From a virus, in the IMG/VR virus record IMGVR_UViG_3300017752_000135, positions 1 to 25,728 of that record: 25,728 nt of DNA; one strand, given 5' to 3'. How positions within the stretch are numbered: the stretch's first letter is position 1; every line of letters begins with the position of its first letter. A model generated the notes under the pieces. The model did not search any database. It saw nothing but the letters and a program-made list of their open reading frames with translations, and was not told the origin of the DNA. The position numbers and the translations under genes were made by a program. Below are positions 3,704 through 25,728 of this stretch, piece by piece.

Positions 3704-4102
3704 TTATGCTAAAGAACCGTATACTTTAAATGAACCAGTATCTAATTTTTCAGTTCTAATCTTCATAGTAAAGTTAGTCTTCTCTTCTTCAATTTCATCA
3801 TGTGGGGTATCAACTGTTTTACCAATGATATCACCGTAACGTGAAAATGAGATTTCAAACTCACCACTCTCACTCATGTCTATATCATTGATATTACCAT
3901 CATGTGATAAACCAAGTAGAGATAGTTTTGCTTCCATTTGTGCAACGGCAGCTCTAGGGTTGATAAACTCCATAGATGCGGTATGACCTAGGATAGCATT
4001 AAGTCTTGCCTTAACGTCTGCGTCATCGATGTTATGTTCACCCGCCATGCCTTCGTAGCCTGGGTTAACGTCTTCTGTGAGATATGCTTTAAATGTTTTC
4101 AT
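3704..4102 (-). CDS. Predicted capsid-internal protein with T4-like targeting N-terminus (132 aa)
   Basis: The body of the protein is unrecognised: helical to about residue 65, then beta-rich (GEFEISFSRYGDIIG; TNFTMKIRTEKL; SFKVYGSLA). The N-terminus, MKTFKAYLTE followed by Asp, closely resembles the capsid-targeting peptide of T4 internal proteins (MKTYQEFIAE followed by Ala), which the gp21 protease removes after the Glu. Cleavage after E10 is the matching prediction. I therefore infer a head-internal or scaffold-associated protein. A GATAAATA late-type box lies five bases upstream of the ATG and there is no Shine-Dalgarno. Related N-termini occur in the genes at 9822-10874 and 10879-12165. 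Confidence 0.75.
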   Translation of the reverse strand: MKTFKAYLTEDVNPGYEGMAGEHNIDDADVKARLNAILGHTASMEFINPRAAVAQMEAKLSLLGLSHDGNINDIDMSESGEFEISFSRYGDIIGKTVDTPHDEIEEEKTNFTMKIRTEKLDTGSFKVYGSLA

Positions 4103-4107
4103 AGTTT

Positions 4108-4115
4108 TATTTATC
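4108..4115 (-). promoter_or_regulatory. T4-late-like promoter GATAAATA
   Basis: NATAAATA-type box on the minus strand, five bases before the ATG at 4102, the same spacing as at 3272, 10874 and 13052. It lies in the 26-base gap between two genes. Confidence 0.55.
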
Positions 4116-4128
4116 CTTTTTACGTGTT

Positions 4129-5079
4129 CTACAGACCAAAAGTTCTAACTTCAGAGTCAGTATGGTTAACAATATCGTCTTCTTGGTTTAAGAATATGTT
4201 CTGTTCGCCACTAGTAGGTGACTCACCTTCAGAAAGTCCGTATGTATCCCACCATTGACTCGGCCAATTGAACAATTCAGAGTTTTCACTTCTCTTGACA
4301 CCCCCAATAGTGTGTTTTGCATCCCACTCTTGGGCAGCAAATTCAAGTGCTTTAGACCCCATCCCTTCAAAAATCATACTGTTAACATCGTGTTCCTGTA
4401 ACCATTTGATGGCAGGATACCATGAAAGACCACCTTCAGTTTCGTTGTCGGCATCTTCTATTGCGTCTTTTTCAATACCGCTAACAGTTTCTTTATAATT
4501 CTGTAAAAGTCTATAGTTTTTTGACTTCAATACTTCAGTAAAGTAATCACATACAGGTATTTCACCGTACAATACAATATCAGCTATTGCTAGTTTATCA
4601 GAACAGTGTCCATCTAAACCTCTTGACTCCCATTCTGTTTGGAAATTTCTCATCCAAGAATAGTGTGGTTGACCATCTTTAGTACCTTCATCAGCAGCTG
4701 CAAAGAAATTTGGTATGAATGTATCACGTTGAACATCTACACCATTTTTGGTCACTGTTATTGGGGAACTCTTGTAAGGTTGTTTACAAGGATATATCAA
4801 CATAGCACCAAATATTGGAGCATCTGTAGTAGTACCTGTTGACCTAATTTCCTTTAATACCGTCTCATTGGGGACGTATCGCATTACAAACCATGCGTGG
4901 ACTGGAAAATTTGACTTAATGTAATCAATATCATCAAGAAACAAATCTTTAAACTCTTCGTCTGTTTGAGTTGTATAACCAGTTGTGTGTAAACGTCTAA
5001 CGTAAGATGCTTCAATCAACCTAAGAAGGTCTTCACTAGGTAAGTCTTGTTCTATTGCGGTATGAAAAATCTTTGGCAT
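4129..5079 (-). CDS. Unknown protein, late block (316 aa)
   Basis: Not recognised. It is soluble and acidic, with a mixed alpha/beta pattern. Near the N-terminus a helical stretch (SEDLLRLIEASYVRRL) precedes aromatic, beta-like segments (HAWFVMRYVP; IFGAMLIYP). The middle has a helix ending YFTEVLKSKNYRLLQ, and the C-terminal 90 residues are Trp-rich (WYPAIKWLQEH, QWWDTYGL). The alternation around IFGAMLIYP and KSKNYRLLQ would be compatible with a GNAT-like fold, but no acetyl-CoA loop is clear. The start at 5079 has an AGGGG-type ribosome site about eleven bases away. It sits just downstream of the 288-residue gene, which has a similar size and style. A virion role is plausible from position only. 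Confidence 0.75.
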   Translation of the reverse strand: MPKIFHTAIEQDLPSEDLLRLIEASYVRRLHTTGYTTQTDEEFKDLFLDDIDYIKSNFPVHAWFVMRYVPNETVLKEIRSTGTTTDAPIFGAMLIYPCKQPYKSSPITVTKNGVDVQRDTFIPNFFAAADEGTKDGQPHYSWMRNFQTEWESRGLDGHCSDKLAIADIVLYGEIPVCDYFTEVLKSKNYRLLQNYKETVSGIEKDAIEDADNETEGGLSWYPAIKWLQEHDVNSMIFEGMGSKALEFAAQEWDAKHTIGGVKRSENSELFNWPSQWWDTYGLSEGESPTSGEQNIFLNQEDDIVNHTDSEVRTFGL

Positions 5080-14514: not shown

Positions 14515-15927
14515 TTACATCTTAAAGTCGCTAAATTTATCACTTCTTCCTCTATCTGCAACTGGAATTGAATCATCAAAATTAGAAGTTGCACTGTCTA
14601 CCAACTCTTCTTGCGCCTCTTGTTCACAATCATAGAGTTTCATACGACTTCTATCGACACCAATAACAAATCTTTTGAATACAGTTGGGTCATTGTATCT
14701 GTTTTTCAACTGTTTGACCACTAGTTGGTCTAGTTCATCTAACTCTTCTGAAGTTATCAAGGCAAACATAAAGTCGGCAGTAGCAGGCAATCCAAATGAT
14801 TCGGATGTATCTTCAAGACCAACATCAGTTGAACCAAATCCACTTCTTGTAGTTTGAGTTGCACTCATAATTGGTACATCATATTCAACTGCAAGACCAC
14901 GCATCTCTTCAGCAATACTCTTAACCAATGTGTAAGAGTTAGCACCAGCGCCTGGTTTGATTCGTAATGAACCACATATGTTTAGATAGTCAATATAGAT
15001 GACATCGGGTTTGAAGTCCTTTTTGAGTTCAAGTTCCTGTAACAAATGTCTGAAGTGACCAACGTGAGCAGCTGCAGTAGGATACTCCTTAATGAACACT
15101 CTACCTTTAGTCTTGTCCTTTAACTTGTCAATCTTCTTACCATACATTGACTTAGACATATCAGGCAGTTCTTTGATTGGTATATTCAAGATGTTTGCAT
15201 CTATCCTTTCTGCAATCCGTTCCTCTGCCATCTCCATAGTAATATACAAAACATTCTTACCCATGAGTAAGTGTGCAGAAGCCATATGACACATGAAAAG
15301 GGACTTACCTACGCCTGTTCCTGCTAAGCAGATGTTCAAGGTCTTATTAGGTAAGCCTCCCTTAGTAATCTTGTTGAAGTATTCTAAGTCAAATGGTATC
15401 TTTTCTTCTTCTGTTGTATAGAAATCGTGTCTACTTTCAGCATCTTCTAATACATTGTGACCCACGTTAGCATCAAATGTAACTGATAGTGCGTCTCTAA
15501 GAAGTTCGGGGATTTCACCAGTAGAACGTTGGGACTTTTTGTCCACGACTTCGATACTGTCCATAAGTGCAAGATAGATTGCTCTGTCTTGACACCATTT
15601 CTCAGTCTCACCCGTCAACCATTCTTCTGGCGTATCCTCTTCAAATGAAGTAAACCCACCTACAACCGATTTAGCTGAACCTAGAATGTTGTCTGATAGT
15701 TCATCATTCGCATCTAGGTCGATGAGAAGTGCTTCGGTTGTAGGGGGTGTACTAAACTTTAGAAAGTAGGTTTGTACCTGTTCAAATACAGTGCGTTCAT
15801 CCACCTCAGTGAAGTATTCACTTTTAATGTACGGAAGAACTTTTCTACTAAATGTTTCGTTATGAACTAGATTCTTCAGAATCGTCTGTTCCAGTCTCGC
15901 TGTTTTTTCCATACTTAAAATACTCAT
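14515..15927 (-). CDS. 41: Replicative DNA helicase, DnaB/T4 gp41-like
   Basis: Hexameric 5'-3' helicase of the replication fork (470 aa; T4 gp41 is 475). An N-terminal helical domain (about 1-150) precedes a RecA-fold ATPase domain. Walker A is AGTGVGKS at 202-209, followed by the DnaB-typical [16 protein letters not shown] segment. Walker B is [10 protein letters not shown], and a later block runs [10 protein letters not shown]. The C-terminus is acidic. The start at 15927 overlaps the end of uvsX by 68 bases; the Met at 15912 is an alternative. Expression is likely from the uvsX promoter by readthrough. It is expected to pair with the gp61-like primase encoded at the other end of the window. 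Confidence 0.93.
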
Positions 15928-16915
15928 TAACTACTACTTCTAATTTCTCCATCACATCGGGTGTGAAGTATTTTTCGGGGTTGTTGTTGATTGTTTTACC
16001 AAACTCGGTTTTACCATTCGGTAGCAACACCCTTGTACTCTGCTTCTTGAATACATCAAAGGCAAGAGCAAGGTCTAACAAACCATAGTATCTATCAAGA
16101 CCTTTATCATATGTAAGTCTGACATCTACCATTCTGTTCTCCACAGTCAATCTTGATTTAGCATTCTTACAATGAATGATGTTACCAATGATTTCTGTGC
16201 CTTCCTTCTCTTTTCTTTTAGACAAGTAGATAATTGATGAAGCTGCATACTTGAGACCACTTCCACCACCCATTTCTTTTTGTGGGAACATGGAACCGAT
16301 AACGTCATAAGTGTGATTGGTTACAATCATTGGCACTTTTGCACGACCAAGTTTAAGAGTAAGAACTCTGAATGCACCCTTAGTAATTTGGGCACGTGTC
16401 ATATCCTTCGTCTCTTTTCCTTCTGCAGTATCTTCAATCTCTTTAGTAGTTGATAACATACCTAGAGAATCAAGTACGAACATCATAGGCGGACGTTCTG
16501 ACTCATCTGATTCTAGATACTTATCGAGTATATTAATAGATTGATTTCTGAATTCTTGAACCGTAACTACAGGCACAATAACAATACGATTGGAATCGAT
16601 TCCTCGTTCCTCAATCATGTCTCTTGTGATAGCAGATTCTGATTCAAAATATATCACAGCAGCTTCGGGGTGGTCTTCCAAGAATTGTTTGACCATACCT
16701 AATGCAAAGAAAGTCTTACCTGTGGCAGACTCACCCGCAATTGCAGTGATTTTGTTTTTTGGTAGTCCACCGTATAGTGAACCACTAAGTAATGCGTTAA
16801 AGATGTAACTGCCTGAATCAACAAACGAATCTACATCCCCAGCCGCAACGCCATCGGAAACAATACCAGCGTATTCGTTCCCAGTGGACTTGACTAAGTC
16901 TTTAATAAATGACAT
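15860..16915 (-). CDS. uvsX: Recombinase UvsX, RecA-like
   Basis: Strand-exchange ATPase for recombination-dependent replication and repair (351 aa; T4 UvsX is 391). Walker A is GESATGKT at 61-68; Walker B is [11 protein letters not shown]. An [20 protein letters not shown] segment marks the UvsX-type DNA-binding region. The C-terminus is acidic and Ser-rich (TDDSEESSS), as often in RecA proteins. GGAG nine bases upstream supports the ATG at 16915. Unlike the operon-leading genes here, it has a leader of about 20 bases after a TATAAT at 16941-16946. The helicase gene follows with a 68-base overlap. Confidence 0.94.
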
Positions 16916-17643: not shown

Positions 17644-20145
17644 TTACGAGAAAAACGAATCCAAAGATGCAACGGGTTCGGGATTCCAACCAATCAGTCC
17701 AATAACTGCTTTCAATGGTTCAACGAATGCTTTGTCGAACTGCATGTCATGGTCAATGAATCTGTGTAAATCAAACTCTTTTGGCAATCCACCAGTGAAC
17801 GATATGACATTTTCATTGATAGGGTTCGGTGTAGTCAAGTATGAGAAATGTAGTTGGTTTCCATCTTTGATTACCTCGTACCGCATGTCAAGATTTTTCT
17901 CTTTGAGTAAGTGATTGTAAAGCAAAGCACCTCTTACGTGTATGGGTGTTCCTTTAGAGTAAATCATAGACCTATCAGAGTATTGCTTAAGACCCCTACA
18001 TCCTCTAGGAAATGCAACGTCTTCAGGCGGCAACGTCCTAAAGTCTCTACGGGCAGTCTCAACAAATTCCCATAAGTCCTGTTCCGTCCCGTTCATGACA
18101 ACCTTAAATGCGTCTGTAAGTTTACCTCTGACCCACTGTGGTGTACTAGACTTAGCAGTCTCAATACCCATCATCTTGAGTTTAGGTTCTTTCAGTCTAA
18201 CACCTTCGTTGTCGTGAACGTTTAGGATGTATCGTTTCTTTGCAGTCCAAATACCACGGTCAGCGATTACTTCTCGACCCATTTCCATTTTCTGTTGAAA
18301 TGCGTTAGTATCCTTTGCAAGTTGTTCATATCCTTCAGCAAGTACAGGTTCAATCTTGTCCTGTGCTATAGTATTAATAAACTCTACAATTTTTTCTTTC
18401 GGTGTATCTTCGGGGAATACTTGTCTGACCAAATCATCTAAAGTAATGTACAACGAATCAGTATCAATAGCAATCACATAGTCCTTGTCTTCTGTTTTAA
18501 GAACATTGTTTAACCACTGGTTGATTGTCTTCTCACCCCACTTGATAATCAACTGACCGCTTGTGGTGATTGCCTCTGCAAGGTCAACATCAAAGAATGC
18601 GAACCATTGATTAGCAAGAGCACCATAAGCGGAGTTGAGTGCAATCTTACGAACCTGTTGGTTATTGTATGCACGCTTGATTTTTGTTTCTAAAACTGTA
18701 CGTTGTTTCTTATCTGAAACACTTTCCAGTTCAATTTGATATCCAATCATTTTCTTCTTCCATAACTTACGTTCATCATAGAACTGTTGCATAAGTTCGG
18801 GAAGGAAACCTTGTTTATCTCTTTTGAATTGTGCACCGTTAGGTGTTACAGCATAGTCACCATCAACAACTTGTGTACCGTCCAGTAACTTCTGCACAGA
18901 AGTATCAACCTTACCACGAATCATTTTCTCAGGCGATATGTTGTACTGCATAATAATATGCGGATACAATGAGTTCAAGTCGAAACTTACAACCCAATCA
19001 TGACCACCAACCAATGGTTCTTTTACGTAAGCACCCTCAATCTTATTGGTCTTTTCTTGACCACGTAATTTTTGTGGGGGTGTCTGAATACCCTGTTCCT
19101 TGAGGAAGTTGTAAATAATGGTTTCCCAATACTTAACCATACCAAATGTATCTGCATAATTACACTTAGCAGTATACGCCATTGATTGAATCAACTCAAT
19201 GAAACCAAGTTTGTCTTCCAGTTCTTCAATCAATTCTACGTCACGTACATTGTATTCTAAGAACAATGGGTAGTTAGTTCTATACAATGTATGGAGTGAA
19301 CCATACTCTGTGTAGTCCAGTTTACCTTTACCTAGTTCAACGTGAGCAATGTGGTCTAGTTTGTAACTTTCCTGTTTAGTAAATGTATTCTTACGATACA
19401 GTTCTAGATAATCTAGGACATTTACACCATATAACGTGAACACTTGATTCTTCTGATAACCATATTGGGTGAACTCTCTTACGTCAGACATTCTCCAAGG
19501 CGACAGTTTTTTGTGGTATCCATCACCAAATAGTCTATCAAGTCTGTTACAAATATATGTTATATCAAATGAGTTTACATTCCACCCTGTGATAATATCA
19601 AATGACTGCTTGTCCCAATACTTAACGAACTCTTCCATTAGGAATGCTTCGTCAGCACATTCAACATAGTCAACGTTATCGGGTGCAGTGTCCCAAGGGC
19701 CAATACCAAATGTTACTGAGTTTTTACCGAAAGGTTTGATTGTGATTGCGTTGACCTTTTCCTTCGCCTCCATCGGGTCGGGAAATCCATCCTCACACTC
19801 ACACTCAATATCAAGTGAAGCACAACGAATTAACTTTGTGTTGGGTTCTATTGTTCCGTGAAATTTATCAGCGATGTATGTGTATACGTAACGGTCATAT
19901 CCGTGGATATCAAACCCCTCTACGTGTGCATACTGTTCTCTGAATTTACGAGCACCACCCATAGAGTTTAGATTGACAACCTCAAGTGGTTGACCATCCA
20001 GTGACCTATAGGCAGTTTGACCCTTCTTTGATTTGACGTAATGGTTAGGACGATAGGAAACTTGAAGTTTGACCTTCTTGTTACCTTGATATCCTGTTAC
20101 CAGTATCTTGTCACGTGTTCTTGCTACATTAGTGTAAAAATCCAT
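17644..20145 (-). CDS. 43: DNA polymerase, family B, T4 gp43-like
   Basis: Replicative polymerase with 3'-5' proofreading (833 aa; T4 gp43 is 898). Exo I is SLDIECE (D112, E114), Exo II GWNVNSFDITYICNRL, Exo III region YNVRDVELIEELE. Polymerase motif A is SFDLNSLYPHIIMQYNISP, motif B KIALNSAYGALANQ, and motif C AIDTDSLYIT with the two catalytic Asp. The KKRYILNVHD segment is typical of phage gp43. All key residues are present, so it should be active. The gene stands alone behind its own promoter (20152-20180), whose -10 box ends six bases from the ATG, with no Shine-Dalgarno. Confidence 0.96.
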   Translation of the reverse strand: MDFYTNVARTRDKILVTGYQGNKKVKLQVSYRPNHYVKSKKGQTAYRSLDGQPLEVVNLNSMGGARKFREQYAHVEGFDIHGYDRYVYTYIADKFHGTIEPNTKLIRCASLDIECECEDGFPDPMEAKEKVNAITIKPFGKNSVTFGIGPWDTAPDNVDYVECADEAFLMEEFVKYWDKQSFDIITGWNVNSFDITYICNRLDRLFGDGYHKKLSPWRMSDVREFTQYGYQKNQVFTLYGVNVLDYLELYRKNTFTKQESYKLDHIAHVELGKGKLDYTEYGSLHTLYRTNYPLFLEYNVRDVELIEELEDKLGFIELIQSMAYTAKCNYADTFGMVKYWETIIYNFLKEQGIQTPPQKLRGQEKTNKIEGAYVKEPLVGGHDWVVSFDLNSLYPHIIMQYNISPEKMIRGKVDTSVQKLLDGTQVVDGDYAVTPNGAQFKRDKQGFLPELMQQFYDERKLWKKKMIGYQIELESVSDKKQRTVLETKIKRAYNNQQVRKIALNSAYGALANQWFAFFDVDLAEAITTSGQLIIKWGEKTINQWLNNVLKTEDKDYVIAIDTDSLYITLDDLVRQVFPEDTPKEKIVEFINTIAQDKIEPVLAEGYEQLAKDTNAFQQKMEMGREVIADRGIWTAKKRYILNVHDNEGVRLKEPKLKMMGIETAKSSTPQWVRGKLTDAFKVVMNGTEQDLWEFVETARRDFRTLPPEDVAFPRGCRGLKQYSDRSMIYSKGTPIHVRGALLYNHLLKEKNLDMRYEVIKDGNQLHFSYLTTPNPINENVISFTGGLPKEFDLHRFIDHDMQFDKAFVEPLKAVIGLIGWNPEPVASLDSFFS

Positions 20146-21131: not shown

Positions 21132-21698
21132 TCAATGTGTTGTCCCCCTCTGAAACTCTTTTAACTGTTGTGACTCTCTATAGTTATGATGTGCCTGAAC
21201 CGTCATCTCTGCTACTTCAAGTTCGGGATAACTTGTGACCAAACTGTAAACCAAACCAGCAACATCATTTTTAGATACACTTGGCATTGGTGAGTTTAAT
21301 AGTCCTAAACATAACGTAGTCATCTTGTATCGTTTTTCTGAATTGTATTGATAGTTATTTGCAAGATGGTTCAAGGATGCTTTGGCAGCTGCGTAAAGAT
21401 AACCCTTAGATATGTTTGGTTGAGCTGCACGTGATGAAAAATTGATAATGAATTTACTATCATCATCTACCCATGCGTTATGGGCTATTTCTAAAATCTT
21501 TGTTTGTTCAAAATCATCATGAGCAAAGTTAATTAATACATCAACATTTTCCCACCCCCACCAAAGGTCACCATTCATAGTTATATCTTCTATACGTGGT
21601 GTAAACACTTCTATGGTTTCACCTCTGTATGGAGTTGCTTCCAATGTATCGATGATGGTTTTCGCTAAACCACTAGTTCCTGTTATTGCTACTTTCAT
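21132..21698 (-). CDS. SDR-like NAD(P)-dependent oxidoreductase/epimerase (188 aa)
   Basis: Predicted Rossmann-fold short-chain dehydrogenase or epimerase. The dinucleotide motif is GTSGLAK at 7-13 (a variant of TGxxGxxG), a central strand reads DVLINFAHDD, the catalytic Ser is in INFSSRAAQ (88-89), and the YAAAK motif is at 102-106 (YxxxK). It is shorter than typical SDRs (about 250 aa), missing much of the substrate-binding C-terminus, so the substrate cannot be told. It overlaps the radical SAM gene by 26 bases, implying the two act in one pathway. No Shine-Dalgarno is seen at its ATG, consistent with coupling. Confidence 0.8.
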   Translation of the reverse strand: MKVAITGTSGLAKTIIDTLEATPYRGETIEVFTPRIEDITMNGDLWWGWENVDVLINFAHDDFEQTKILEIAHNAWVDDDSKFIINFSSRAAQPNISKGYLYAAAKASLNHLANNYQYNSEKRYKMTTLCLGLLNSPMPSVSKNDVAGLVYSLVTSYPELEVAEMTVQAHHNYRESQQLKEFQRGTTH

Positions 21699-22602
21699 AA
21701 TATTTTGTTACCAAATCAAATGATGGTTTCCCAAACAGCGAACCATCTACACTGCACTTGTTACAAGGCGAATGACTTCTATCACCCTTCATTAATCTTT
21801 TACGAATCTTTGTCATAGGTTTACTGAACCACACATCATGTAATGACATGGTCAATAGATTACCTACAACATGTTCTCTGCCCCAATCATTGGAACAGAA
21901 TAAAACATCACCATTCCAATCAACAAACATTTTATAAAAAGGATAATGACACGGTTTACCTTTAAGCGTTTCAATTGCAGTCTCCTCTACTCCTACCCAA
22001 TCCATTACTCCACTACGGTTATTAAGAATCAAACCATGTTTCTCAAAGTCTCCCCAATGCATTCTAAACTTATATTGTTCTTCTCTAATTCGTGCTTCTG
22101 CTAACATCTCATCAAAGTGTTGCATTTGTTCTATGCCATCATATAGATTGATGTAGAGTAAAACTAGCCCACTTTTAAATAGATTAGTTACATAGTCTAC
22201 ATCTAGTTTGTCACCGTTAGTGTTACACTCTATAGTTGCATGTGGTAATTCAAATCTAAACTCTTTTATAATTTCGGGGAACCAAGGATTAAGTAAGTTT
22301 TCTCCAAATCCACTAAATGATATCTTACCGTTAAATCCATTAGCACCCAATTCTTCCGCAATGGTTTGAGCACCTTTAACTGTGAGGTGTAAGTTTCTAT
22401 TGGGAAATATTTTTGGGTCGTGTCTTGGACAGAATTCACAAGTTCTATTACATAACTCAGTGGTATTAATTTCTACTGTTAGAATAGAATCAAGAGGTCT
22501 GAGATTTTTAGCTTGTTTGTCCCAATGTTTCTTTTCCTGTTCTCTTCGATGTTCAAGGAAGTCGTATTGGTCAACTGCTGTAATTGGTATATTTTTACTC
22601 AT
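21673..22602 (-). CDS. Radical SAM enzyme with SPASM-like C-terminus (309 aa)
   Basis: Predicted radical SAM enzyme. The 4Fe-4S motif CNRTCEFC (C51, C55, C58; CxxxCxxC) is followed by GGE-type and strand motifs (ISFSGFGENLL, then ATIECNTNGD). The C-terminal region has Cys residues at FYKMFVDWNGDVLFCSND and SPCNKC, as in SPASM/twitch auxiliary-cluster domains of peptide or sugar modifying enzymes. The substrate is unknown. Its ATG lies just seven bases after the encoded CCA end of tRNA-Gly, with no Shine-Dalgarno, so translation probably depends on a short U-rich leader left by tRNA processing. The SDR gene follows with overlap. Confidence 0.85.
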   Translation of the reverse strand: MSKNIPITAVDQYDFLEHRREQEKKHWDKQAKNLRPLDSILTVEINTTELCNRTCEFCPRHDPKIFPNRNLHLTVKGAQTIAEELGANGFNGKISFSGFGENLLNPWFPEIIKEFRFELPHATIECNTNGDKLDVDYVTNLFKSGLVLLYINLYDGIEQMQHFDEMLAEARIREEQYKFRMHWGDFEKHGLILNNRSGVMDWVGVEETAIETLKGKPCHYPFYKMFVDWNGDVLFCSNDWGREHVVGNLLTMSLHDVWFSKPMTKIRKRLMKGDRSHSPCNKCSVDGSLFGKPSFDLVTKYYESSNNRN

Positions 22603-22609
22603 AAAAAAC

Positions 22610-22683
22610 TGGAGCGGGTGGGAAGAATCGAACTCCCGTCAAAAGGTTGGAAACCTCTTGTAATGCCACTATACGACACCCGC
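22610..22683 (-). tRNA. tRNA-Gly (anticodon UCC)
   Basis: A full cloverleaf of 74 bases including an encoded CCA (22610-22612). The acceptor stem GCGGGTG pairs perfectly with CACCCGC; D arm TCGTATAGTGG; anticodon stem AGAGG/CCTTT around a seven-base loop TTTCCAA (anticodon TCC); T arm GGGAG-TTCGATT-CTTCC. The 5' half is close to E. coli tRNA-Gly(UCC) as I recall it. It is embedded in an operon between the DruA-like gene (stop five bases upstream) and the radical SAM gene (ATG seven bases downstream). Confidence 0.93.
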
Positions 22684-22688
22684 TTAAC

Positions 22689-23825
22689 TTATCGAATTAT
22701 GTCAATGTCTTCTGCATTGACGTTCCATGTTTCTAATTCAGTTCTGAGTCTGTCTTCTGATTTAAGTTTGTCATATCTTTTACCAGCAAGTTTTTTCCAC
22801 CAATCAACAACACCTTCTAACTCATAACGGTCATAGTTTGGTGCTTTCTTGAGGGTGTCCGTTTCTAGATTTAGATAATCGACCACATTCTCATAACCAT
22901 AATTTGAAAAGTATTGTCTCTTCCTTTCGGTGAGGCGTTTCGCATCTTCAAATGTTTTATTGAACTCTGCTAACTTTTCTTTGTCATGTATATTTAGTGA
23001 GTTTTTTATAGTAGAAATTTGTTTCTGAATAGTCTTCATTTTTCTAGACGATGCATCTTCATGTACTAATGGTTTGCCATCATTTTTAGTTTCAAACCAA
23101 TACTTCAAATCTCTATAATTCTCATCATTAATAGAAGGCACAAAGTCTGATACAGTCAAACCCTTGAACCTTAAGAACGGTTTCATGCCATCATACTGTG
23201 ATGCAGTTTTGGATGAACCATATAATGATGTAGTTTCAAACCCACAAAAATTTGTATTGTACTTTTTGTTCAGTGCTCTTCGAGCATGGTGTGAACAACA
23301 GATAGCTGCAAGTAATTTACCGCCAAGATAATTGTACCCAAATGGTTGAGTAGGTACAATAGTAAAACCCATAATAACACTGTCATTAAACCTCTTCATT
23401 GTATCTTTGCACATAGTGTCTAATGGTTTACCAAGCATATCATTTCTAGGTTTAGAGTTGATAGTCGGTGAACCGAATCTGATAAAACCTACAATTTTGT
23501 TTGTGTTCTTTTCATACACAACCCACTTTAAAGTCTTGCCTGGAATTGACTTTTCCAAGGCATGTGAAGTGGTGATTTCTAAGTAGTTATCATATAAGTC
23601 ATTTGATAAGACTCTACATTCAAATTCCATGTCATGGGGATGCATTGAGAAGTCACTGAACATATCATCTTCAGGCCCCATGCCTGGCAATGACGTAGGT
23701 AAGTTTGCGACTCGTTCTAGTTTTACTTTTCTTAGGTAATCATCTATACGGTCAAATCCATTGTAGAAGTCGATAAAGACTTGGGAGGCGTATAGAGAAT
23801 CTTCTTTTGATAATATTAGAGACAT
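22689..23825 (-). CDS. DruA/DUF4338-like protein (378 aa)
   Basis: Residues about 95-230 resemble the DUF4338 family, to which the Druantia defence protein DruA belongs: LKWVVYEKNTNKIVGFIRFG, then FNDSVIMGFTIVPTQPFGYN, then LGGKLLAAICCSHHARRAL, then ETTSLYGSS. The family is also found in phages and mobile elements; its biochemical role is unclear to me. The last 110 residues are a charged helical extension (SSRKMKTIQKQISTIKNSLN). I chose the Met at 23825, not the one at 23849, because a near-consensus promoter ends six bases before it. The gene leads an operon continuing through tRNA-Gly into the lysozyme. The match is from memory, so moderately sure of family, unsure of function. Confidence 0.72.
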   Translation of the reverse strand: MSLILSKEDSLYASQVFIDFYNGFDRIDDYLRKVKLERVANLPTSLPGMGPEDDMFSDFSMHPHDMEFECRVLSNDLYDNYLEITTSHALEKSIPGKTLKWVVYEKNTNKIVGFIRFGSPTINSKPRNDMLGKPLDTMCKDTMKRFNDSVIMGFTIVPTQPFGYNYLGGKLLAAICCSHHARRALNKKYNTNFCGFETTSLYGSSKTASQYDGMKPFLRFKGLTVSDFVPSINDENYRDLKYWFETKNDGKPLVHEDASSRKMKTIQKQISTIKNSLNIHDKEKLAEFNKTFEDAKRLTERKRQYFSNYGYENVVDYLNLETDTLKKAPNYDRYELEGVVDWWKKLAGKRYDKLKSEDRLRTELETWNVNAEDIDIIR

Positions 23826-23831
23826 GTACTT

Positions 23832-23860
23832 ATTATACTGAATAAGCACATGCCTGTAAA
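23832..23860 (-). promoter_or_regulatory. sigma70-like promoter for the DruA-like operon
   Basis: Minus strand: TTTACA (23855-23860), 17-base spacer, TATAAT (23832-23837), six bases to the ATG at 23825. Five of six -35 bases match consensus. It lies in the gap after hsp20 and predicts a leaderless mRNA. Confidence 0.78.
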
Positions 23861-23869
23861 GAGGGTTTA

Positions 23870-24292
23870 TTAAGAAATTTTAATTTCTTGAGGTTTATCC
23901 TCTTCGGGGATTTCCCTCTTCAAGTAAACAAACAAGATACCATCTAGCAACTCAGATGATTCAACTTTGATATCATCAGCAAGTGTAAATGTTCTCTTGA
24001 ATGAACGTGATGCAAGTCCTCTATGGATGTATTCCATGTCATCTGGCTCTGCATCCCTAACACCCCCAACAATGGATAAAATCTCTTTCTCTTTAGTGAT
24101 TAAGATATCGTCCTTACCAAAACCAGCAACAGCCATTTCAATACTGAAATTTTCTGCATCGTGTTTTACAATGTTGTAAGGTGGGTAGTTATTATTTGAA
24201 GGTGCGGAAGCACGTTCCAATAGTTGAAAGGTTCTGTCGAACCCAATTGCGAATGGGAATGATTTCCCAAATACGTCATCGTACATAGTCAT
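23870..24292 (-). CDS. hsp20: Small heat-shock protein, IbpA/Hsp20 family
   Basis: ATP-independent chaperone that holds unfolding proteins (140 aa). An N-terminal FDRTFQLLERA segment precedes the YPPYNI entry to the alpha-crystallin domain. The domain runs through FSIEMAVAGFGKDDI, a YIHRGLASRSFKRTFTLAD block, and the GILFVYLKREIPEE end, all close to IbpA. The C-terminal I-x-I tail (EIKIS) that binds neighbouring dimers is present. Similar genes are common in T4-like cyanophages. AGGAG seven bases upstream fixes the ATG at 24292. It is a single-gene unit with tandem early- and late-type promoters. Confidence 0.94.
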   Translation of the reverse strand: MTMYDDVFGKSFPFAIGFDRTFQLLERASAPSNNNYPPYNIVKHDAENFSIEMAVAGFGKDDILITKEKEILSIVGGVRDAEPDDMEYIHRGLASRSFKRTFTLADDIKVESSELLDGILFVYLKREIPEEDKPQEIKIS

Positions 24293-24403: not shown

Positions 24404-24757
24404 TTATCTTTTCTTACAATATTTTTTTGATTGTTGCACAGCATCTATATTGTTTGCAACTACTATGGACATGAGAAAGTTCGTCTCTGAAAAGACTTTT
24501 GAGTTCAAAGTATTATGCCTTCTATCGTGTTCTATAGCAGGTAGTAGAACTGCAGTCTTTACTAGAAACATTTTACCTACTGAGGGTGATTCACCAAGGA
24601 TAGGATTTAATTCTTTGACACAATCATATTGAAGACCTTTATATGTTGTATAGATGTCTAGGAGTTGAAGTGATACAAATGTTGCCCACTCAAGGTCACT
24701 TACAGGTTCATGTAATTGGAGTATAGATAGTGACCTTGTCGCTCTTTCCTTTGACAT
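24404..24757 (-). CDS. Small membrane protein, DUF5658-like (117 aa)
   Basis: Resembles DUF5658-type small membrane proteins (from memory): hydrophobic helices around FVSLQLLDIYTTYKGL, with the family-like D-x-x-T-T and E-L-N-P (KELNPILG), then KMFLVKTAVLLPAI, and perhaps FLMSIVVANN. The tail is basic (KKYCKKR). I chose the ATG at 24757 because AGGA lies five bases upstream. The same frame runs on to 25003, but that part only shadows the cyclase gene. It overlaps the cyclase end by 50 bases, so the two are likely coupled. Function unknown; a membrane partner of the cyclase is a guess. Confidence 0.7.
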   Translation of the reverse strand: MSKERATRSLSILQLHEPVSDLEWATFVSLQLLDIYTTYKGLQYDCVKELNPILGESPSVGKMFLVKTAVLLPAIEHDRRHNTLNSKVFSETNFLMSIVVANNIDAVQQSKKYCKKR

Positions 24758-25728
24758 TAATCCTATCAACTTCTGAGAATTTTCTATCTGTACAGAGTTG
24801 ATAAGTTCTTTCCGATAACAACAAGTCAACCCCATCATAATTTCTTGTTTGTCCTTCGAGTCTAGCACCAAGGTTGACGGCATCTCCAATGACGGAATAG
24901 TCAAATCTAAGTTCGCTCCCCATGTTTCCAACGATGCACTCGCCAGAACTAATACCAATACCCACGTTAATGGGTGGAAGAGAAAGTGGTTTAAGTTCTT
25001 CATTCAATACCTTTGTTGCTTCAAGAACTTCTAGTGCTGATTTAACTGCTAACTCAGCATGGTCTTCACAATCTAGAGGGGCGTTCCAAAAACTCATTAT
25101 GCAATCACCCATGTACTTGTCGATGGTTCCATTATTATTTAGAATTATCTTAGTCTGCATATCAAGAAATTTGTTAATTAGTTCTACTAATCCTTCGGGG
25201 TCATCTTGGTGCATATAGTGTTCGCTTATGGGGGTAAATCCGATTATGTCCATGAACATGAAGGACATCTCCCTTCTATCTCCACCAAGTTTCAATTTTG
25301 ATGGGTCTTTTTGTAGTTCTTCAACCATATCAGGCGATAAATATTTTTGGAACTGTTTCTTAATTTGTTCTTTCAATTGATACGTAGTGAAGTATTTGTT
25401 GAAAGATGCGTGACCAAAAACTAACAATGAGGCAAGAGATGAGTAAAAAACATCGAGCAAAATCAAGTTCTCCATCCAAACGTAGTAGCCCATATACGCC
25501 TGCAATCCAACGACACCTAGACTCCCTATCCCCGAAAGAATTGTGGGAAGTCTGTAGACCATTGCCAATATTACTAGAGAAGAAAACAGAACAAGAACAA
25601 TCTCTAGAAATTCAAGATAGTAGAATCGTTGTATTTGGAATCCTGTCAAGACGGTCTGAATTAAATTCGCTTGTACTTCATGGGGATACATTGCACCCAT
25701 TGGGGTTGAAACTGGATTACTCAGACCT
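24708..25728 (-). CDS. CHASE2-type class III adenylate cyclase (N-terminus outside window)
   Basis: Receptor-type cyclase making cAMP. The visible 339 residues begin with the end of a CHASE2 sensor (STPMGAMYPHEVQAN), then three membrane helices (about 37-57, 61-80, 87-105), a linker starting QFQKYLSPDMVEEL, and the catalytic domain. Metal-binding Asp are D160 (FMDIIGFT) and D208 (KYMGDC). Substrate-selecting K204 is present, with Ser278 where Asp or Thr is usual. N285 and R289 (GDAVNLGAR) complete the transition-state site. Lys rather than Glu points to ATP, not GTP. All catalytic residues are present, so activity is expected. The frame is open to the right edge. CHASE2 is a bacterial extracytoplasmic sensor domain, so this looks acquired from a host. 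Confidence 0.88.
   Translation of the reverse strand, partial: GLSNPVSTPMGAMYPHEVQANLIQTVLTGFQIQRFYYLEFLEIVLVLFSSLVILAMVYRLPTILSGIGSLGVVGLQAYMGYYVWMENLILLDVFYSSLASLLVFGHASFNKYFTTYQLKEQIKKQFQKYLSPDMVEELQKDPSKLKLGGDRREMSFMFMDIIGFTPISEHYMHQDDPEGLVELINKFLDMQTKIILNNNGTIDKYMGDCIMSFWNAPLDCEDHAELAVKSALEVLEATKVLNEELKPLSLPPINVGIGISSGECIVGNMGSELRFDYSVIGDAVNLGARLEGQTRNYDGVDLLLSERTYQLCTDRKFSEVDRINVKGKSDKVTIYTPIT

Follow-up and report, generated by a model that had tools for sequence, protein, structure and literature searches.

A truncated receptor cyclase in a T4-like phage

The window analysed here is an entire IMG/VR virus record of 25,728 bp. At its end, on the minus strand (24708..25727), lies an open reading frame of 339 codons that has zero internal stops and is still open where the contig finishes. 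The encoded protein matches phrog_35576 (E 2e-117) across profile positions 278-618 of 681. Because the match begins at position 278, the 5′ part of the gene must be missing, and the window holds the C-terminal 339 codons of a protein whose nearest full-length relative has about 603 amino acids. A Pfam profile search places a class III cyclase catalytic domain (Guanylate_cyc, PF00211; E 1.3e-18) at residues 153-335 (24723..25271). Three transmembrane helices precede it, at residues 36-59 (25551..25622), 62-87 (25467..25544) and 93-118 (25374..25451), the last running into a cytosolic linker. They were located by alignment to helices 302-325, 328-353 and 359-393 in the AlphaFold model of a full-length relative from contig L003. 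Of the periplasmic CHASE2 sensor, complete in L003, the window retains only the C-terminal end (25569..25724), which covers the last 56 profile columns (200-255 of 257) with an E-value of 1.2e-4, under the family's curated cut-off. We regard the reading frame as likely to be the terminal portion of a CHASE2 receptor adenylyl cyclase encoded by the phage, and the final gene of a larger cassette, a judgement made jointly with the envelope-sensor model developed below.

The neighbouring genes, all on the minus strand, provide a phage context. A gene for a small DUF5658 protein (24404..24757) has a start codon that overlaps the 3′ end of the cyclase gene. Of 70 related contigs, 57 have DUF5658 after the cyclase, and 67 keep the downstream neighbour Hsp20, a small heat-shock protein (23870..24292 in the window). 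Further along are a T4-like B-family DNA polymerase (17644..20145), only 48% identical to those of cyanophages, and a UvsX-like recombinase with a DnaB-like helicase (14515..16915). Together with Hsp20, these constitute a T4-like phage gene set. The gene adjoining hsp20 (22689-23849) encodes a partial DruA domain (PF14236, E 3e-9; phrog_19197, of unknown function) and is conserved in the window's clade. A tRNA gene (22613-22683) lies between it and a radical SAM/SPASM gene, which is followed by a gene for a short-chain-dehydrogenase-like protein (21132-22602 for the pair, which is conserved in sister phages); L003 has a tRNA-Gly (TCC) at the place matching the window tRNA.

The order cyclase-hsp20-polymerase is repeated at the DNA level in L003, L039-L044, L058 and others. 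The window is therefore not chimeric, and the presence of the same junction in several independent contigs rules out a chimeric or bacterial origin. The synteny of cyclase, hsp20 and replication genes that the first-pass annotation had pointed to thus recurs in related phages, but the weight placed on these neighbours was excessive: the conserved partners, csgF-csgG-curlin-fecR, sit on the side of the cyclase that the window lacks.

Domain architecture and active site

A scan of viral contigs returned 369 matching stretches; 80 were kept, with identities of 75-90%. The hit in L084 (CAKLQH020000011.1, 'Acinetobacter phage MD-2021a') was set aside: its neighbours mfd, hscA and iscU are chromosomal, and the record, which also has cyaA, looks like a piece of bacterial chromosome. 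Full-length phage homologues mostly have 602-629 amino acids, and their CHASE2 domain is complete. The L003 protein, 89% identical to the window, contains both domains, CHASE2 spanning residues 10-317 (E 2e-30) and the cyclase residues 418-601. Its AlphaFold model (mean pLDDT 85) comprises an N-terminal transmembrane helix, an alpha/beta periplasmic domain, three further transmembrane helices and a cyclase fold. This is the layout of a CHASE2 receptor, in which the periplasmic domain lies between the N-terminal helix and the other three, and the window preserves its end only. The closest solved structures to the modelled cyclase fold are bacterial class III enzymes such as CyaC, CyaB and Cya2. 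CyaB (3r5g) and CyaC (1wc0/1wc1) share their catalytic fold and active-site residues with the window cyclase, but have sensor domains that differ from CHASE2.

Residues D160, K204, D208, S278, N285 and R289 are located where the first-pass annotation had placed the catalytic positions. They include the class III hallmark set of two metal-binding aspartates and a transition-state asparagine and arginine within the cyclase homology domain. All six positions are kept in 77-78 of 78 full-length phage homologues. Among bacterial relatives, the five residues other than S278 are conserved in 80 of 80, and the S278 position holds Ser in 71 and Thr in nine. A serine here, previously singled out as an oddity at the base-choice site, is the family norm. 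The broader claim, that the phage encodes a CHASE2 receptor cyclase whose active site is intact, is borne out by the profiles, the full-length relatives and the catalytic residues. In one contig (L023, 10001-11008), Tyr replaces the first metal-binding Asp, reflecting either a sequencing error or an inactive copy.

The pairing of K204 with S278 is of the adenylyl type (Lys plus Asp, Thr or Ser), as opposed to the Glu/Cys or Glu/Gly of guanylyl cyclases. In alignment with CyaB, the lysine for adenine is common to both enzymes, and S278 aligns with the Thr that this adenylyl cyclase carries at the second site of base contact. Where the window protein has K204, the guanylyl cyclase Cya2 carries Glu, and ATP is therefore the likely substrate. 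Judged by these residues, the product is very likely to be cAMP. The dN/dS of the window fragment, measured against five relatives, is about 0.12-0.17, and the protein is therefore under purifying selection.

The curli cassette

Fifty relatives extend upstream of the cyclase start by more than 5.5 kb, and all 50 carry csgF, csgG and fecR there, with curlin-like proteins encoded in between. The window has none of these genes, as its contig stops before reaching them. Judging by these relatives, the window would belong to a cassette found in marine T4-like phages, with the order csgF-csgG-curlin-fecR-curlin-cyclase.

This cassette has been described before. A pelagiphage cassette for type VIII secretion (T8SS) that includes FecR and an adenylate cyclase is reported from podo- and myoviruses (PMC9599517, 2022); its gene order is that of the window's relatives, and its cyclase is homologous to the CHASE2 cyclase of the window. 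That account points out that bacterial curli operons have neither FecR nor the cyclase, draws on an analogy with Gammaproteobacteria to tie the cyclase to T8SS regulation, and describes a phage cassette without CsgD. The curli part has also been described elsewhere, with sibling capture or lysis control proposed (PMC7029224, PMC9004378). Pelagibacter phage HTVC008M has a gene annotated as adenylate/guanylyl cyclase (49% identity to the window), and a cyclase is likewise annotated in four records of Methylophilales phage Melnitz (37% identity), which has the same cassette as HTVC008M. These annotations and PMC9599517 overturn the earlier statement that no T4-like phage was known to carry a complete receptor cyclase. 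The window cyclase is not a first and would be a further member of a phage cassette already in the literature. Those open-licence papers that mention CHASE2, phage and adenylate cyclase together do not, going by title and abstract, deal with phage enzymes.

Some features distinguish the window and its clade from the published cassette. Two contigs of the clade, L003 (8676-9197) and L026 (8697-9197), encode a cell-wall hydrolase of the Hydrolase_2 family (PF07486; E 5e-24 in L003; PHROG endolysin) between the second curlin and the cyclase. The window cyclase is followed by the DUF5658-hsp20 pair, the window ends before the curli genes, and its type of catalytic domain differs from that of several of its nearest sister phages. 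Just before csgF, L003 also encodes two related small membrane proteins (4067-4676; phrog_18771), one with a weak holin match.

The phage cassette is unlike the bacterial csg operon, which combines csgF, csgG and curlin but lacks both FecR and a CHASE2 cyclase. Three alphaproteobacterial csgF-csgG loci (about 18 kb) contained neither FecR nor a CHASE2 cyclase. Conversely, searches with single queries turned up neither CsgG nor CsgF next to bacterial CHASE2 cyclases in the stretches fetched for 80 loci. The phage cassette is therefore best read as a curli module that appears to have been joined to a FecR-CHASE2-cyclase module.

FecR as a probable partner of CHASE2

Bacterial genomes provide a clue to what FecR does in this cassette. 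The stretches fetched around the cyclase's 80 best bacterial relatives encode a FecR-domain protein in 32 cases, and in 16 it lies directly upstream on the same strand. Across 16 whole bacterial genomes, partly chosen for known FecR neighbours, FecR lies within 8 kb of 23 of 38 CHASE2 genes, against 0.58 expected, and is upstream on the same strand in 21 of those 23. Of the 22 CHASE2 genes in these genomes that played no part in the choice, 11 still have FecR nearby. Further, an operon of FecR and a CHASE2-histidine kinase is known from Burkholderia (PMC5192318). FecR and CHASE2 proteins are thus genetic partners in bacteria. The alphaproteobacterial pairs have the phage arrangement of CHASE2, three transmembrane helices and class III cyclase, with the same catalytic set including Ser and with fecR upstream in many cases, but these cyclases are only 29-38% identical to the phage protein. 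Given this bacterial partnership, the phage FecR is probably the partner of the cyclase and not an iron regulator. That FecR acts as the input of the CHASE2 domain is fairly likely.

Phage FecR proteins are unlike their bacterial counterparts in one respect. All 25 of 25 distinct C-terminal tails end in a curlin-like strand, with a hydrophobic-x-hydrophobic-x-Gln motif near the last residue. The same motif is present in six of 911 control reading frames from the same contigs and in one of 32 bacterial FecR neighbours, although the Fisher p-value for this enrichment is only a guide because the FecR tails are related by descent. A structural model of FecR has a modest mean pLDDT of 64, its C-terminal strands, spaced about 10 residues apart, being better modelled. 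Its N-terminal domain resembles the surface-signalling domain of PupR (Foldseek matches to PupR/FecR), and no solved curli fibre was among the Foldseek matches of the model. We would give even chances to a physical link between FecR and the amyloid.

Exchange of catalytic domains

Sensor and catalytic domain do not share a single history across these phages. Relative to the window, the cyclases of L026 and L035 are 96-99% identical in the transmembrane region and 65% identical in the catalytic domain. The same comparison with window 24708-25727 gives a near-identical CHASE2/transmembrane part and a catalytic domain at about 65% for L026 (9203-11059), L035, L031 and L040, and DUF5658 was not detected after the cyclase in these four. 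This pattern indicates intragenic recombination. In Melnitz, the CHASE2 domain groups with that of HTVC008M and the catalytic domain falls outside the phage clade. The Melnitz cyclase (L083, 13179-15230) also has Ser in place of Asn at a catalytic position and is possibly weak or inactive. Catalytic domains have been exchanged behind conserved CHASE2 sensors, such that sensor and output recombine.

Cyclic nucleotide receptors and competing explanations

Receptors for cyclic nucleotides are scarce among the genomes that we surveyed. Seven related phage records, including two complete isolate genomes, yielded no cNMP-binding domain (PF00027) and no CRP-like receptor. Host genomes were represented by 79 members of the family of one SAR11 genome identified by its 16S. 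This reference genome was assigned to SAR11 by a 16S probe, and its 16S also contains further published SAR11 probe sites. A cNMP-binding domain occurs in four of the 79 genomes, leaving 75 without a recognisable one, and a class III cyclase is above the cut-off in two. For SAR11-type hosts, these low counts weaken readings that depend on CRP or on interference with Pycsar defence.

Close to the published view is the proposal that the cyclase raises host cAMP and reprogrammes transcription via CRP, as in enterobacterial curli control. It draws on the T8SS analogy with Gammaproteobacteria, and this phage, whose polymerase is distant from those of cyanophages, may have a host with CRP. Against it are the rarity of cNMP-binding domains in both the SAR11 family and the phage records, and the missing CsgD, such that we consider this explanation unlikely. 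The earlier suggestion that infection raises host cAMP stands as a possibility in itself, but the receptor to read such a signal is mostly missing. The first-pass annotation also raised interference with cyclic-nucleotide defence, whereby the cyclase would flood or mimic Pycsar-type signals and so blunt them. The product class would be the same, and this is a phage gene maintained by purifying selection. Yet the class III cyclase that such a defence needs is above the cut-off in only the two SAR11-family genomes, extra alarm nucleotide would activate such an effector instead of blocking it, and the gene is fixed beside curli genes, not defence genes. Counter-defence is not favoured for SAR11-type hosts, and we hold it to be extremely improbable. 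The phage locus also differs from a Pycsar system proper, where the cyclase (PycC) is paired with a gene for a cNMP-binding effector, PF00027 being absent from all seven phage records.

A further explanation treats the catalytic part as a relic or scaffold. The CHASE2/transmembrane part would then be what matters, for example in FecR/curli docking, and the cassette would serve lysis timing by the pore, as in the Melnitz paper. In some phages a conserved sensor is indeed followed by a swapped or degenerate catalytic domain, and the replaced Melnitz domain with its Asn to Ser change means that some phages may do without the activity. The genes for an endolysin-type hydrolase and holin-like proteins close by in L003 also fit. 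However, catalytic residues are retained in nearly every homologue (the 77-78 of 78 above), the dN/dS of the fragment is low, and the swaps in the window's clade bring in intact cyclases, making a catalytic relic very unlikely.

A proposed model of envelope sensing

We consider it likely that the cyclase is a sensor of curli or envelope state that makes cAMP. In this model, CsgG and CsgF would form an outer-membrane pore that exports the curlin-like proteins. A secreted FecR, with its surface-signalling-type domain and curlin-like last strand, would be tied by its tail to these exported proteins and would inform the periplasmic CHASE2 domain of the state of the fibre or envelope. From there the signal would cross the transmembrane helices to a cyclase dimer and be converted into cytoplasmic cAMP. 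Our best guess is that the phage would benefit through the timing of late events or lysis, or through surface remodelling. We also speculate, with rather little confidence, that FecR uses its curlin strand to co-assemble with, or be exported beside, the phage curli fibre and so gates the cyclase. This would amount to an amyloid-coupled receptor by which the infected cell gauges fibre or envelope state, timing late infection.

Implications for marine phages

Beyond the accounts of the cassette cited above, what is new is the FecR-CHASE2 partnership, the curlin-like FecR tail, the catalytic-domain swaps and the receptor gap. Along with an outer-membrane pore and curlin-like proteins, marine phages encode a receptor-cyclase module that is not found in their known hosts. 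With FecR as the probable partner of CHASE2 and its curlin-like tail as a probable link to the fibre, a testable receptor model replaces the reading of FecR as an iron regulator. With no recognisable cAMP receptor in the phages surveyed or in most genomes of the SAR11 family, what the signal acts on becomes a sharp question. If the amyloid-coupled reading is true, late infection would be timed by a second messenger that the streamlined host does not normally use.
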